Assembly (NCBI RefSeq): GCF_039851975.1
Contig: NZ_CP156660.1
Location: 1,116,001 to 1,180,000, forward strand
DNA length: 64,000 bases
DNA from: Desulfoscipio sp. XC116
GTDB lineage: Bacteria; Bacillota; Desulfotomaculia; Desulfotomaculales; Desulfallaceae
Reading direction: 5' to 3'
Below the pieces are notes generated by a model. That model made no database searches and had not been told where the DNA came from. It worked only from the letters and a program-made list of their open reading frames with translations. Below, in pieces: positions 31,864 to 36,996 of the stretch. The first letter of the stretch is position 1. Each line of letters opens with the position of its first letter. A program made the position numbers and the translations under genes.

Positions 31864-32493
31864 TTAGGCAACGGTGATAACTTTTTGCAGCCCTATAAGC
31901 CAGTTGTTAATTTCGAACATATTGGAGACATCCCCCAACAGCAGTTTTTCTTTAAGGTGATAATATTCCAGGCAAGTGCCGCAGGAAAGCACGGCGGTGC
32001 CCGCGGCATGTAATTGTTCAAGCTGTTCACGCACAGAAGTGCCTTCACAGGTTAAAAACACCCCGGTATTTAAAAACAACAGCGCCGCGGGCGGCGGAGT
32101 CATGGCGGCCAGGGTGGTGAACAAGCTTTTCATCAGCACCTGTCCCAGATCCGGCGAGCCTTGGCCAAGTATGTTTGAGGTAATGAAATAAACCGGCCCG
32201 CCAGTGGGTGTTGCAGAAGTTTGGGTGTGGGTCGTATTTTCATTGGTTTGATCGTTCGCTGGCGTAGTGCCGTTGCGGGCTATGGTTAAATGGTAAGCGT
32301 TGTCTTTTTGCTGTTCACTGACCTGGTAACCTGCGTTCTTGGCGAACAGCATAACGTTTTGCCGGGCAATGTCGTTATCTACAATAGTGGTGATGATGAC
32401 GGCGTCAGTGTCCGCTTCTTCCAGCGCCTTTTTTGTGTTGATTACCGGGTGCGGGCAGGCCAGCCCGCGGCAGTCCACTAATTTGCGATTCAT
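31864..32493 (-). CDS. yedF: Sulfurtransferase-like selenium metabolism protein YedF
   Basis: This 209-residue protein has an N-terminal TusA/SirA-type domain (VDCRGLACPHPVINTKKALEE, with the active cysteine in CPHP), a low-complexity linker of Thr/Asn (about 78-100), and a C-terminal DsrE-like domain (FITSNILGQGSPDLGQVLMKSLF ... VLSCGTCLEYY). This fused form occurs beside selD in selenium-using bacteria, as here (63-nt gap). It probably handles reactive selenium or sulfur for SelD; the exact step is not established. Confidence 0.92.
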   Translation of the reverse strand: MNRKLVDCRGLACPHPVINTKKALEEADTDAVIITTIVDNDIARQNVMLFAKNAGYQVSEQQKDNAYHLTIARNGTTPANDQTNENTTHTQTSATPTGGPVYFITSNILGQGSPDLGQVLMKSLFTTLAAMTPPPAALLFLNTGVFLTCEGTSVREQLEQLHAAGTAVLSCGTCLEYYHLKEKLLLGDVSNMFEINNWLIGLQKVITVA

Positions 32494-32556: not shown

Positions 32557-33597
32557 CTATATTACACTGATCAGCCTATCTTGGGGCGGCAGCACCCGCC
32601 CTATCACAGCGGAAGGTACGCCCCGGTTTGTCAGGTCCTCGACAAGCCGGTCGGCCAATGTATCGGCCACGGCTATAAGCAGCCCGCCCGATGTTTGGGG
32701 GTCGAACATGATCATTTGTTCTTCGGGTCTGAGCGAATTGTCTAAGGTTACTTTATTACCCAGGTGTTCTTTATTGTCATAAGCGCCGGCTGGTATTATA
32801 CCCATGCCGGCCATTTCTTTTGTTTCCGGCAGCAGCGGCAGCGCGGAAAAGCGGATTTCCAGACAGACCTGGCTGGCCGCGGCCATTTCGGCGGCATGTC
32901 CCAGCAGGCCAAAGCCGGTGATATCCGTACAGGCGCTGGCTTTATGCCGCTGCATGGCCGCGGATGCCTCCTTATTTAAGGCGGACATGCATTGTACCGC
33001 CTGCCTGACCGTTTCAGGCGACAGCAGGTCGGCTTTAATAGCGGTATTAATAATACCGGTGCCCAGAGGTTTGGTTAATACCAGACGGTCGCCGGGCCGA
33101 GCGGCGGCATTGGAAATAATGTTTGCCGGCGGCGCTATGCCGGTTACCGCCAGGCCATATTTAGGCTCATCGTCACGCACCGTATGCCCCCCGGCTATAA
33201 TACCGCCTGCTTCCACTACTTTATCTGCTCCGCCTTTTAAGATTTCCCCCAGTACGGCGGGGGGCAGGCAGTCGGGGAAGCAAACGATATTCAGGGCCAA
33301 AAGCGGCCGGCCTCCCATAGCATAAACATCACTTAAGGCATTGGCCGCGGCAATTTGGCCGAATAAATAAGGGTCATCTACCATAGGTGTAAAAAAATCA
33401 ACGGTTTGTATTAAAGCCTGGTGATCATTTAGGCGGTAAACGGCTGCATCATCTGAAGTATTTAATCCCACCATAAGGCGCGGGTCTTGAGCTACGGGTA
33501 AATGCCGCAGTACCTGCGACAGGGTGTGAGGCCCTATTTTAGCCGCTCACCCGGAGGTCTTGGCCAGGCTGGTAAGCTTTATTTGTTTTCCGGTCAT
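32557..33597 (-). CDS. selD: Selenide, water dikinase SelD, itself a selenoprotein (in-frame UGA)
   Basis: SelD makes selenophosphate for selenocysteine and selenouridine. Without recoding, the ORF starts only at 33474, losing the active-site loop. Reading upstream in the same frame from an ATG at 33597 (AGGAGG before it) gives KTSG-U-AAKIGPH, where UGA at 33549-33547 falls exactly where SelD has catalytic Cys/Sec followed by the conserved lysine. The full product is 346 residues, normal for SelD. Downstream motifs include NTSDDAAVYRL, TVDFFTPMVDDPY, NALSDVYAMGG and ITGFGLLGHAAEM. yedF follows; the other selenoprotein gene is divergent. Confidence 0.92.
33506..33518 (-). promoter_or_regulatory. 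Candidate SECIS hairpin in selD
   Basis: On the coding strand CGCAG-GTA-CTGCG forms a 5-bp stem, beginning 28 nt after the UGA; its apical G lies about 34 nt downstream, inside the range seen for bacterial SECIS elements. An alternative stem AGGG/CCCT lies closer to the UGA. Confidence 0.55.
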
Positions 33598-34005
33598 TAT
33601 CTGATCGGCCTCCTTTCTTATAGCATGTCACTTATCGGAGATTAAAATAGGCGGACATATTTTAGCCTGACTAGCTTGGCGTAAGCTTTCAGCTTCCGTA
33701 AGTGGGAGTAGAACGCCAACCAAGTCATGCATTTGCGGTTCTAAAATTCATGGGGAGTTGAATCTCCCTCTGAATTTTAGAACTTGCTTTAATGTTAGCA
33801 TGTCAGTCGAATATTCTTTTTATATTTTAATGATTCCTTTATATAATACATAAAATAATTTTATACAACAGCCGGGATGTACAAAAAACGCTTATTTTAT
33901 ATTTGGGACGGCTATAAAAACCCGGCAAAAGGTATACATTAAAGGTAGCCTTATGATAAAATTTGTGGGTGTATTAGTTTAACGATATATAAGGAGGTAG
34001 GAACA
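33598..34005. other. Divergent spacer in the selenium locus, with a long hairpin
   Basis: The 408 bp hold the leaders of selD and of the thioredoxin-like selenoprotein. At 33738-33783, GTTCTAAAATTCA and TGAATTTTAGAAC form a perfect 13-bp stem enclosing an inner GGGGAG/CTCCCT stem. The preceding CTTCCGTAAGTGGGAGT resembles the start of the dispersed palindromic element, so this may be a distant relative. The last ~170 bp are AT-rich, probably promoter. Confidence 0.55.
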
Positions 34006-34347
34006 TTGCAGCCAATTCAAGTAATTGTTTTTGGACTTAACGCTCCGGTACCCCATATCGGCTGAGGTCCCAGTCCATCCGCAGGTTGCGGGTCGGAAAA
34101 AACCATGAAACAAGAGGCCGAGGATTTGGGCGTTGCTTTAAAGGGAAGCTTTGGCGACGAGGTTGACGTAAAATTTGTAGATGTATCAACGGACGCACTA
34201 AAGGAGTACCCTAAAATTGAATCTATTTTGCCCCGTGTGCGTTTACCGCTTACGGTAATTAATGAGGAGCCCCGCTTCCACGGCGGCATATCCGCCGATG
34301 TTATTTCGGATGCCCTGCGGGACATGGCAAAAGGGCAGAGTAATTAA
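34006..34347 (+). CDS. Thioredoxin-fold selenoprotein with in-frame UGA (unassigned family)
   Basis: A TTG at 34006, 8 nt after AAGGAGG, opens a 113-residue frame with UGA at 34063-34065 as codon 20: VIVFGLNAPVPHIG-U-GPSPSAGCGSEKTMKQEAEDL. After the UGA the frame stays open and protein-like to 34347. The pattern is strand, Sec loop with a second Cys nine residues on, helix, strand VDVKFVDVS, helix, then LPLTVINEEPRF with the cis-proline typical of thioredoxin folds. A canonical SECIS hairpin follows the UGA. It is divergent from selD. Conventional calling would start at ATG 34105 and lose the active site. The family is not named. Confidence 0.85.
34079..34091 (+). promoter_or_regulatory. SECIS hairpin of the thioredoxin-like selenoprotein
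   Basis: CCGCA-GGT-TGCGG: a perfect 5-bp stem with a GGU apical loop, 13 nt after the UGA. It closely resembles the upper SECIS helix of E. coli fdhF (GGU in the loop, similar spacing), the feature SelB binds. Confidence 0.8.
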
Positions 34348-34443: not shown

Positions 34444-34728
34444 ATGGCCTGGAAGGATTTGAAAAATAAGGTAAAACGGCAGCTTTCAGACTATCTGGAA
34501 TTGCCGGGGGATATTATGCTTGATTTGCCTAAAATTGTACTGGTTGGCAACCTGCAAGTATTTATTGAAAATCATCGCGGTGTTCAGGAATATAGCCCCT
34601 GTTTGGTACGTGTGGTTGTCAGAGACAAAGTTATTGAGGTGACCGGTGAAAACTTGACCCTGCGCAATATCGTGCCCGATGAAATTTGTGTGGAAGGACA
34701 AATTTCCGGTGTTGCTTTTTTAAACTAG
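34444..34728 (+). CDS. yqfC: Sporulation protein YqfC
   Basis: The 94-residue protein has the YabP/YqfC-type pattern: LPGDIMLDLPKIVLVGNLQVFIENHRGV, then VVVRDKVIEVTGENLTLRNIVPDEICVEGQISGVAF. It is a mother-cell sporulation protein of unknown biochemistry. It begins the yqfC-yqfD-phoH-pgpH-ybeY block, and yqfD starts 11 nt later. Confidence 0.93.
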   Translation: MAWKDLKNKVKRQLSDYLELPGDIMLDLPKIVLVGNLQVFIENHRGVQEYSPCLVRVVVRDKVIEVTGENLTLRNIVPDEICVEGQISGVAFLN

Positions 34729-34739
34729 GGGGGTAAAAA

Positions 34740-36050
34740 ATGTTTTTTAAGATATTAAATTATCTGGATGGCTATGTGACCATAACGCTCCCCGAGGTAT
34801 GCTTGGAGAAGTTTATTAACTTGGCAACCACCCGGGGTATCTGTCTTTGGGGAATTACCAACGCGGTCGGGAAGCAAGTAGAGCTCAATGTGCGTCTGAG
34901 GGATGTACAACCCTTACGTCATGTGGCCCGCATGACCCGCTGCCGGTTTCATATTTTGCGCCGGTCCGGCTTACCCTTTATTATCGGCAGGCTGCGGCGG
35001 CGTCAGGCATTACTGGGTGGGGCGTTATTCTTTGTTATTGCGCTGTACGCACTGTCCTCTTTCGTATGGTTTATTGATATAACTGGTAATAAATCAGTCA
35101 CTGAAGATAGTATAGCCCGCGTTGTTCGCCAAGCCGGCCTGTATCGCGGGGCGCCCAAGTGGTCCATAGACACGGCCGGGCTGGAACAAATTATCATCCA
35201 GCGAGTGAGCGGCTTGGCCTGGGTTGGTGTGAGTGTCGATGGGACAAGGGTAATGATTGAGGTGGTGGAAAAAGTACTGCCACCTGAAAACGGGGAACAT
35301 CCCGTGGATATAGTTGCTCAAAAAGATGGGCTGGTTAAAGAAATACTGGTTTTGTCCGGTCATCCGTTGGTTGAAGAAGGGGACACCGTTACCAGCGGTC
35401 AGGTTTTGATATCGGCGGCTATACCGCCCCCCGATATTGAGGAGGAGTCTGAAAGCAGTGCCGATGCAGTTGAAGAGGATGAACGGCAGCCGCCGGTGCG
35501 ATATGTACAGGCCCGGGGTATTGTTAGGGCTCGCGTATGGTATGATCGCTACAATGAAGTAAAGCTTGAAGAACAGGTAACCAGGCCTACCGGGCAAGAA
35601 ATTACCAAACTTTGCATGAAAATTGGGGGTAAGGAAATAATCTTAATGGGCCGGCAGAAAGTACCCTATGCCCATTATGCCGAGCATACGAATATTAAAA
35701 GGTTGCCCGCATGGAGGAATATCAATGTGCCTGTCGAACTTATAACGGTTAAATATATAGAGCAGGATATCAATATTAATAAATTAAGTCGGGCTGAGGC
35801 CCGCCGCCTGGCTGAAAAAAAGGCGATGGAAGAGTTGCGTTCGCAAATGCCTGACGATGCTAAAATATTGGAAACAGAGTCGCGGGAAGTCAAAACCGTA
35901 AGCGAAGAGGATATTGTCCGTGTCCGGGTGTTTGTGGAAACACTTGAGGAAATAGGCGTGGAGAAACCTCATCAAGCAAATGGAGGAGGTCCTGGTATAG
36001 TTGGCGGAGAATGTACAGACCCAGGCAACGGAAACCAGAATAATAATTGA
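34740..36050 (+). CDS. yqfD: Sporulation protein YqfD
   Basis: This 436-residue protein has one central membrane helix (about residues 92-112, LLGGALFFVIALYALSSFVW), followed by a POTRA-like segment (ITGNKSVTEDSIARVVRQAGLYRG) and an extracytoplasmic C-terminal domain. A Glu/Asp-rich linker (about 230-250) is present. Null mutants in Bacillus affect sporulation, but the molecular role is unknown. Its end overlaps phoH by 50 nt, unusually long. Confidence 0.92.
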   Translation: MFFKILNYLDGYVTITLPEVCLEKFINLATTRGICLWGITNAVGKQVELNVRLRDVQPLRHVARMTRCRFHILRRSGLPFIIGRLRRRQALLGGALFFVIALYALSSFVWFIDITGNKSVTEDSIARVVRQAGLYRGAPKWSIDTAGLEQIIIQRVSGLAWVGVSVDGTRVMIEVVEKVLPPENGEHPVDIVAQKDGLVKEILVLSGHPLVEEGDTVTSGQVLISAAIPPPDIEEESESSADAVEEDERQPPVRYVQARGIVRARVWYDRYNEVKLEEQVTRPTGQEITKLCMKIGGKEIILMGRQKVPYAHYAEHTNIKRLPAWRNINVPVELITVKYIEQDININKLSRAEARRLAEKKAMEELRSQMPDDAKILETESREVKTVSEEDIVRVRVFVETLEEIGVEKPHQANGGGPGIVGGECTDPGNGNQNNN

Positions 36051-36996
36051 TGACATTGGTGCTGCCGCGGAGATATTTGGTAAGCATGATGAAAATTTAT
36101 CGCTGGTGGAAAACTCTCTGGGTGTAAAGTTGGTGGCCCGGGGTGAAGAGTTAGTCATTATGGGGCAACGGGAGCAGGTCGAAAAAACACGGTCAATAAT
36201 TGAACAATTGCAGGAGTATTACCAGGCCGGCAACCGATTAACCAGGCACGAAATTAATTATGCCATCAGATCTGTAAACGCCGGCAATACCAAGGCGCTA
36301 ACTGGCTTGGCCCGCGATGTGGTGCTGGTGACAGCCAGAGGTAAAAAAATCAAGCCCAAAACAGTTGGTCAGCAGCGGTATATAGAAGAACTGCATAAGC
36401 ATGATGTGGTATTTGCTCTGGGACCCGCCGGCACGGGCAAAACATATCTGGCGGTGGTAATGGCTGTGAGGGCGCTGCGCAACCGGGCTGTGAACAGGAT
36501 TGTATTGACCAGGCCGGCGGTGGAAGCAGGCGAAAAGCTGGGCTTTTTACCCGGCGACCTGCAGGAAAAGGTAGACCCTTACCTGCGCCCGTTGTATGAC
36601 AGTCTTTATGATGTACTGGGTGTCGAAAACACACAAAAATACCTGGAACGACAGGTGATCGAGATTGCTCCCCTGGCTTACATGCGGGGCCGAACACTGG
36701 ATGATTCATTTGTTATTTTGGACGAAGCGCAAAATACAACTCCCGAACAAATGAAAATGTTCCTCACCCGCTTGGGCTTTGGATCGCAGGCCGTAATTAC
36801 CGGTGACGAAACTCAGGTTGATCTGCCCAGAGGACAACAATCGGGATTGGTGCACGCTCGCCGGGTACTTGATGATATCGAAGGGATAGCCTTCCATCAT
36901 TTTACCGGAGAGGATATTGTCAGACATCCCCTGGTGCAGCAAATTGTCCGAGCTTATGAGGAAAAAGGGATTCCGGGGGAAAAGACTGAGGTGTGA
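36001..36996 (+). CDS. phoH: PhoH-family ATPase
   Basis: This 331-residue PhoH protein has an N-terminal KH-like region, then an ATPase domain with Walker A GPAGTGKTYLAVVMAV near residue 140, the motifs VLTRPAVEAGEKLGFLPGDLQEKVDPYLRPLYD, Walker B FVILDEAQNTTPEQMKMFLTR and TGDETQVDLPRGQQSGL (listed in order). PhoH is linked to RNA metabolism and often neighbours ybeY, as here. The start is TTG 36001 inside yqfD, after a GGAGG. Confidence 0.94.
   Translation: MAENVQTQATETRIIIDDIGAAAEIFGKHDENLSLVENSLGVKLVARGEELVIMGQREQVEKTRSIIEQLQEYYQAGNRLTRHEINYAIRSVNAGNTKALTGLARDVVLVTARGKKIKPKTVGQQRYIEELHKHDVVFALGPAGTGKTYLAVVMAVRALRNRAVNRIVLTRPAVEAGEKLGFLPGDLQEKVDPYLRPLYDSLYDVLGVENTQKYLERQVIEIAPLAYMRGRTLDDSFVILDEAQNTTPEQMKMFLTRLGFGSQAVITGDETQVDLPRGQQSGLVHARRVLDDIEGIAFHHFTGEDIVRHPLVQQIVRAYEEKGIPGEKTEV

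Follow-up and report, generated by a model that had tools for sequence, protein, structure and literature searches.

Positions 34006 to 34347 of the window, the 64,000-nucleotide stretch of Desulfoscipio sp. XC116 DNA analysed here, very likely hold a genuine bacterial selenoprotein gene, the 113-residue product of which would be a small thioredoxin-fold protein that receives selenocysteine (Sec) through SelB and a SECIS-like hairpin. Five features are established at the level of sequence: the reading frame, the alternation of UGA and Cys among relatives, selection on the codons upstream of the UGA, a covarying hairpin and the association of paralogues with ars genes. Sec insertion at the UGA at 34063-34065 and a redox or metalloid role of the selenoprotein are inferred, and the fold is modelled.

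The gene lies on the forward strand and comprises 113 codons with the UGA read through, from a TTG start (34006-34008) to a TAA stop (34345-34347); its recoded translation (TGA=U) has 113 residues. The original prediction placed an AAGGAGG 8 nt before this TTG and a frame open from there across the UGA to 34347. Both are read directly in the DNA, with the Shine-Dalgarno-like AAGGAGG at 33991-33997 (forward strand), and the same arrangement of AAGGAGG and TTG occurs in two relatives from the same genus (L002 and L003). It was also predicted that standard gene callers begin at 34105 and lose the active site. Indeed, on this frame the plain list of open reading frames (ORFs) holds only 34105-34347 (forward strand), an ORF of 80 amino acids without strand 1, Sec20 or Cys28. 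Inspection by eye revealed no evident Shine-Dalgarno sequence upstream of the ATG at 34105. Selection on codons was estimated from the 14 closest members (91 pairs). The pN/pS ratio is 0.12 over the ten codons upstream of the UGA, indicating purifying selection, 0.23 over the 13 codons between the UGA and the caller's ATG, and 0.22 downstream of that ATG.

The genome that contains the window encodes SelB (386 bits; cut-off 242) and tRNA-Sec (67.1 bits; cut-off 47). SelB exceeds its cut-off in 96 of 100 relatives and tRNA-Sec in 95 of 100, versus 2 and 5, respectively, of 14 control genomes. Since nearly all relatives have both, this co-occurrence is necessary for the selenoprotein assignment but does not discriminate. 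The gene is divergent from selD, as had been claimed; selD occupies 32557-33597 on the reverse strand (TIGR00476, 409 bits with TGA translated as U; cut-off 125). Beside it, also on the reverse strand, is yedF (31864-32493; TIGR03527, 195 bits against a cut-off of 110), which encodes a selenium-metabolism sulfurtransferase-like protein. The window selD itself has an in-frame UGA at 33549-33547 (reverse strand), corresponding to Sec17 in the context MTGKQIKLTSLAKTSG-U-AAKIG. The plain ORF list begins selD at 33474, with loss of the active site. An imperfect large inverted repeat (33738-33783; GTTCTAAAATTCA ... TGAATTTTAGAAC) is intergenic between selD and the selenoprotein gene, and its first 30 bases are single-copy in the genome.

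UGA/Cys alternation and the hairpin

The recoded window protein has matches in 38 of 100 related genomes (its own genome counted), and most full-length matches have a single in-frame TGA. A further, named genome collection, in which many of the genomes are the same, yielded 48 matching loci, and a profile search of the phylum matched 56 of 299 genomes, with Sec and Cys forms both present. Plasmid and phage records contained no match of the window protein. Matches shorter than 92 residues were dropped, among them the Sec- and Cys-less L062-L064, L053, L059 and L116 and the UGA-containing L051 and L057, and removal of exact duplicates took 118 rows to 90 full-length members. Two alignments were used, A1 with 53 rows and A3 with 90. 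Members were classed as Sec when a UGA fell among the first 40 residues of the match, and this UGA was scored as the Sec codon.

The 90 distinct full-length members comprise 62 with a UGA in the active-site loop and 28 without. In A3, the column of the window U holds U or Cys in 90 of 90 rows. The UGA falls exactly in this column in 48 Sec members, one residue off in 10 and elsewhere in the loop in 4; the off-column rows (14 of 62), which weigh slightly against the selenoprotein reading, carry Cys in the window column. All 28 Cys forms have Cys in that column, encoded by TGC in 18 and by TGT in 10. No UGA was found outside the active-site loop in the 118 cores, and a search with every stop read as X found neither TAA nor TAG at the Sec site of any intact member. 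The site column of this all-stops search contains 34 TGA, 56 Cys, 10 gaps, 2 Gly and 1 Arg, a mixture that results from the aligner shifting a neighbouring Cys or other residue into the column for some UGA members. Internal TAA or TAG codons among its matches correspond to gene ends, to the early ends of L045 and L051, to the frameshifted L053 and to a fragment beside L023. One Cys member, L147, has a TAA or TAG ahead of its alignable part. The relatives thus neither all start past the UGA nor lack Cys at the UGA position; they extend upstream with the N-terminal strand and carry either UGA or Cys at this position, in favour of the original prediction.

The proposed working pair of Sec20 and Cys29 requires correction in its second half. 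Sec20 stands, but residue 29 is Gly, and the role of conserved second thiol falls to Cys28 (codon 34087-34089, forward strand, within the 3' arm of the hairpin), which is at least 90% conserved in both A1 and A3. A Cys lies 6 to 14 residues past the U in 58 of the 62 Sec members and is absent from that interval in four. The spacing is U-x7-C-G or U-x8-C-G in 36 of 62 (the window protein has U-x7-C), UxxC occurs in 1 of 62 and CxxU in 4 of 62, and 9 of 62 have a vicinal Cys-Sec. Sec20 and Cys28, and not a UxxC motif, are therefore likely the working pair. Three distant Sec members (L152, L154 and L157), which belong to the four with the UGA elsewhere in the loop, carry a Cys shortly ahead of the UGA but lack one 6 to 14 residues past it, and their Sec may be at the second-thiol position instead. 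Two other distant Sec members, L060 and L061, from two genomes of one family, have the shortened loop GWEGU. L062, L063 and L064, from three genomes of family f3, retain the C-terminal half of the fold, with neither Sec nor Cys at the site.

A hairpin of the form CCGCA-GGU-UGCGG had been reported 13 nt past the UGA, and it is present, with CCGCA at 34079-34083, GGT at 34084-34086 and TGCGG at 34087-34091. The complete SECIS-like hairpin, AUCCGCA-GGU-UGCGGGU (34077-34093, forward strand), has a 7 bp stem and a GGU loop that begins 18 nt past the UGA, and the folding energy of 34066-34100 is -12.5 kcal/mol. The bSECIS model, as given in the sections of PMC13188914 used here, has an apical loop of 3-9 nt with G within the first two positions, an upper stem of 4-16 bp, a loop 16-37 nt past the UGA and an energy of -7.5 kcal/mol or lower. 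The window hairpin lies within each of these ranges, consistent with its description as a canonical SECIS. Compared with shuffled sequence of its own composition, however, it is only mildly unusual (z of -1.7 and -2.0), so by itself it proves little. It is comparative evidence that carries the case: UGA or Cys in 90 relatives, compensatory changes in the stem and the difference in hairpins between Sec and Cys forms.

Covariation was assessed in 46 of the 62 Sec members (43 distinct) that share the motif [AT][GCS]C[GS]; the other 16 lack the motif in the stretch searched. In the 43 distinct Sec rows, 84.7% of the cells of the five-pair stem are paired, versus 73.9% in shuffles, and the stem covariation score is 0.349 versus 0.154. 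For each measure 0 of 500 shuffles was as high, and both values are above those of all slid versions of the structure. Two of the five covariation measures are not above shuffles, namely double-sided pair changes (3, a value reached by 112 of 500 shuffles) and additional pair types (8, reached by 102 of 500); a slide of +3 surpasses the true structure on both. At stem pair 7-15, 32 rows have G-C, 8 have A-U, 2 have G-U and 1 is unpaired. Pair 5-17 is disrupted in 15 of 43 rows, and one group of members has the stem in a shifted register. Codons are coupled across the stem: an Ala codon accompanies the Cys codon TGC in 34 of 36 cases, and a Thr codon accompanies TGT in 9 of 10 (Fisher p 4.7e-7, uncorrected for relatedness). 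A strong hairpin (score of at least 9) is found downstream of the site in 43 of 62 Sec members and in 3 of the 28 Cys forms (p 1e-8 by Mann-Whitney test, without correction for relatedness), leaving 19 of 62 Sec members under that score. Folding energy alone separates the two forms weakly, with -7.5 kcal/mol or lower in 61 of 62 and 24 of 28, respectively (p 0.03).

Two other readings of the UGA have to be weighed against these results. If the UGA at 34063 were an ordinary stop, the gene would encode the 80-residue protein from ATG 34105 and the upstream frame would be accidental. The standard ORF list shows just this one ORF on the frame, and the window hairpin alone is not strongly unusual. 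Nonetheless, this reading is very improbable, given that the ten codons upstream of the UGA are conserved as protein by their low pN/pS (0.12), that the 28 Cys relatives run through the site as a single frame, that AAGGAGG precedes TTG 34006 whereas no ribosome-binding site is evident before ATG 34105, and that the 80-residue product would be without strand 1 of the fold. Bacterial ribosomes can read through UGA, and a near-cognate tRNA could insert, for example, Trp instead of Sec. That is extremely improbable here: all 28 non-UGA relatives have Cys in the column and none has Trp, the hairpin with its G-containing loop 18 nt downstream covaries and is rarer in the Cys forms, and the genome has SelB, tRNA-Sec and a selD that itself contains a UGA. 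The preferred reading is that SelB, together with the SECIS-like hairpin, would direct Sec insertion at the UGA.

Fold and relation to known families

The predicted thioredoxin fold is borne out by fold searches and by an AlphaFold model of the window protein. The model has the order E-H-E-H-H-E-E-H (pLDDT 78.3, pTM 0.68) and is least confident around Sec, where residues 16-20 and 23-29 of the loop are below pLDDT 50. The cis-Pro-type LPLTVIN of the original prediction likewise finds support; Pro81 of RLPLTVIN (codon 34246-34248, forward strand) is at the cis-Pro-type position of the fold, immediately precedes the model strand 82-85 and is invariant in the 53 and in the 90 members.

The closest known relative is DUF1462 (Pfam PF07315; YuzD). 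PDB entry 1xg8, a DUF1462 structure of S. aureus SA0789/SA0798, is the best PDB match in profile searches (E 4.5e-4 with A1 and 7.8e-6 with A3) and the best solved neighbour of the model by both Foldseek (E 5.1e-4) and VIA-align. The VIA alignment of the model with 1xg8 gave a Z of 11.1 and an rmsd of 2.9 over 100 aligned residues, with 18% identity. The Pfam DUF1462 model matches 5 of 53 members, at 17.5, 19.1, 20.5, 24.5 and 24.9 bits against a gathering cut-off of 25, and the two borderline scores of 24.5 and 24.9 bits belong to L060 and L061, the two most divergent members. The window protein has no match to PF07315 up to E 1. The thioredoxin-type fold is common to both families. In HMMER alignments, the CASC cysteines of 1xg8 coincide with the AGC end of the loop of the selenoprotein family, which leaves Sec20 without a clear equivalent in that structure. 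The selenoprotein family is best regarded as sister to DUF1462, the two most divergent members lying on the boundary. DUF1462 and ArsD are both placed in the thioredoxin-like clan, according to the part of PMC3091736 used here.

ArsD, an arsenic metallochaperone with a three-cysteine As(III) site and ArsA as partner, resembles the selenoprotein family in its thioredoxin-like fold, in a cysteine cluster after strand 1 that ends in CGP, and in the company of ars operons, which some paralogues of the family share. The motifs differ, being Cys-Cys-x4-Cys in ArsD and U-x7-C, or C-U with a later C-C, in the selenoprotein family. ArsD crystal structures rank 4 by Foldseek and 47 by VIA (Z 8.3). Membership of the ArsD family (PF06953) was rejected; hhalign gave a probability of 3% against five ArsD proteins, and the window protein has no ArsD match. 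The ArsD-related vicinal cysteine protein VcpD (NF047871) matches 11 of 90 members weakly (best E 8.5e-6), over the N-terminal half where coordinates are shown. It too was rejected: 4 of 10 members matched, with scores of 16-23 bits where the cut-off is 90, and the window protein has no match. A genome search with VcpD found no match in any genome and none in the controls, and is therefore uninformative.

Thioredoxin-type selenoproteins with UxxC (among them Trx, Grx, SaoT and HUIPC) have the thioredoxin fold, a Sec in the loop after strand 1 and a bacterial SECIS in common with the family. The window protein shares their fold in the model but has U-x7-C in place of the UxxC or CxxU of the thioredoxin and glutaredoxin selenoproteins. 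Of the Sao selenoproteins (organometal system), SaoL and SaoC have CU motifs according to the review table (PMC13188914, as far as used here). A permease encoded beside some paralogues bears a distant resemblance to SaoE (121 bits; cut-off 325), and no Sao model is among the matches of the 53 members at E 0.1 or of the 90 members at E 0.01. The sole Pfam match of the window protein, DUF6671 (E 0.077), is chance-like and was rejected, and NCBIfam has no match to the window protein. Over the 90 members, NCBIfam at E 0.01 returned only VcpD (11 members), HUIPC (1; E 0.0011), a YruB glutaredoxin model (1) and one chance-like match.

Table 1 of a 2026 review, in the part of PMC13188914 used here, covers 119 selenoprotein families and subfamilies, and comparison by name and with its Pfam and NCBIfam models gave no matching entry. 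No model of NCBIfam release 20 covers the family, and no paper recognisable as describing it was found in the open-access literature. On sequence grounds, this is very probably a large thioredoxin-fold selenoprotein family with unusual spacing of U and C that is new relative to the catalogues searched; the window gene itself is not a new mechanism. With neither an NCBIfam model nor a catalogue entry, the Sec genes risk annotation as fragments of ~80 amino acids without the active site.

Gene neighbourhoods and possible function

Orthologues of the window gene are located between yedF-selD and yqfC-yqfD-phoH. In the window, the right flank consists of yqfC (34444-34728, forward strand) and yqfD (34740-36050), which exceed the cut-offs of TIGR02856 and TIGR02876, respectively, and of a phoH-like gene (36001-36996; PhoH model 214 bits, below the cut-off of 380). 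This flank is conserved, and 9 of 10 orthologue rows have a SelD-cluster neighbour. A second group of members lies between a putative ligA and gatC, both read from sequence. Many other paralogues are in ars operons with ArsR, Acr3, thioredoxin-type ArsC and ArsM as neighbours, and some adjoin an OsmC-like gene and genes for lipoamide dehydrogenase, lipoate ligase and a GcvH-like lipoyl carrier. For every neighbour cluster but OsmC, NCBIfam confirmed the identity of one representative; ligA, gatC, hisC and OsmC were named by reading the sequence alone.

Setting aside the selD-side and ligA-side groups leaves 43 members, a set assigned by hand that includes fragments and degraded copies; 13 of them (from 10 genomes) are within 5 kb of an Acr3-like gene, where 0.31 would be expected. 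With Acr3 matches over the cut-off only, 11 of the 43 (8 genomes) are within 5 kb, against 0.17 expected. None of 13 selD-side orthologues and none of 7 ligA-side members has Acr3 within 5 kb, counts that come from an incomplete Acr3 list (expected 0.20), whereas the 43-member counts come from the full list. The window genome has no Acr3 match and no ArsD match. Given this absence and the distance of selD-side orthologues from Acr3, the arsenic clue may not apply to the window copy. In four loci (L090, L097, L099 and L105), a thioredoxin-fold protein with Sec or Cys is grouped with lipoamide dehydrogenase and a lipoyl carrier resembling GcvH. Further genes there are Acr3-like (L090, L099 and L105), ArsR-like (L090, L097 and L105), OsmC-like (L090, L097 and L099) and lipoate ligase (L097 and L105) genes. 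It is possible that these groups are a lipoyl-driven redox or arsenic module.

In the proposed mechanism, Sec20 and, eight residues further, Cys28 would lie in the long loop that joins strand 1 to helix 1. The most likely chemistry for Sec20 would be that of a nucleophile or a soft-metal ligand, with Cys28 as the resolving or co-ligand thiol, and the product would act as a thiol/selenol redoxin or as a soft-metalloid-binding protein. A redox role of the window protein is plausible, and soft-metalloid binding is a serious alternative given the paralogues in ars operons.

The family may consist of redoxins that draw electrons from a lipoyl/lipoamide-dehydrogenase chain or thioredoxin reductase and relay them to partners such as arsenate reductase or an OsmC-type peroxidase. 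The thioredoxin fold and the invariant Pro point in this direction, as do neighbours that include thioredoxin-type ArsC, a GcvH-like carrier, lipoamide dehydrogenase, lipoate ligase and an OsmC-like gene, the last named from its sequence alone. The rarity among Sec members of UxxC (1 of 62) and CxxU (4 of 62), and the four without a Cys 6 to 14 residues past the U, argue against it, and we hold this reading at somewhat short of an even chance. More tentatively, the family could be ArsD-like, the Sec/Cys site binding As(III) or another soft metalloid and passing it to an exporter, with the window copy as a housekeeping offshoot. The excess of members near Acr3 (13 and 11 of 43) is consistent with such a role, together with the ArsR, Acr3, ArsC and ArsM neighbour clusters, the Foldseek and VIA ranks of ArsD structures (4 and 47), the vicinal Cys-Sec of 9 of 62 Sec members and the weak VcpD matches. 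Against it stand the 3% probability in the profile comparison with five ArsD proteins, VcpD scores (16-23 bits) far from the cut-off of 90 and a window genome without an Acr3 match. The adjacency of yedF and selD, both confirmed in the window, and the SelD-cluster neighbour in 9 of 10 orthologue rows raise a third idea, that the window copy serves selenium metabolism, for example by delivering Se to SelD. This is unlikely, as the flank of yqfC, yqfD and phoH-like genes is equally conserved, so that vertical inheritance explains the selD adjacency equally well, and another group of members lies between the putative ligA and gatC. For the window copy, we lean slightly towards redoxin chemistry over soft-metalloid binding. 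The Sec-containing paralogues in ars operons would offer a testable link of selenium with arsenic biology.

Sec/Cys switching and tandem UGA codons

A quick tree of the family (111 columns, many forks unresolved) requires a minimum of 15 changes between Sec and Cys, 5 of which are forced by starred branches. Three loci (L047:501-836, L050:483-833 and L084:1402-1737) have UGA-UGA in the active-site loop and form a clade with a support of 94 that spans two genomes. The pN/pS ratio in this clade is 0.25 before and 0.31 after the tandem codons. There is one hairpin, the loop of which begins 18 nt past the second UGA and 21 nt past the first. Nothing on adjacent UGA or Sec codons in bacteria was found in the open-access literature.

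As a tentative overall picture, one that we consider possible rather than probable, the family would be a new Sec-based metalloid-handling or redox module of anaerobic Bacillota that spread by paralogy through ars operons with repeated switching between Sec and Cys, and one clade would insert two adjacent Sec residues from tandem UGA-UGA under one hairpin in the same genes that end at UGA. This clade would be a natural test of one SECIS serving two adjacent UGA codons. L050 and L084 terminate in TGA TGA as a true stop; with UGA-UGA also in the active site, one codon pair would have two meanings per message.
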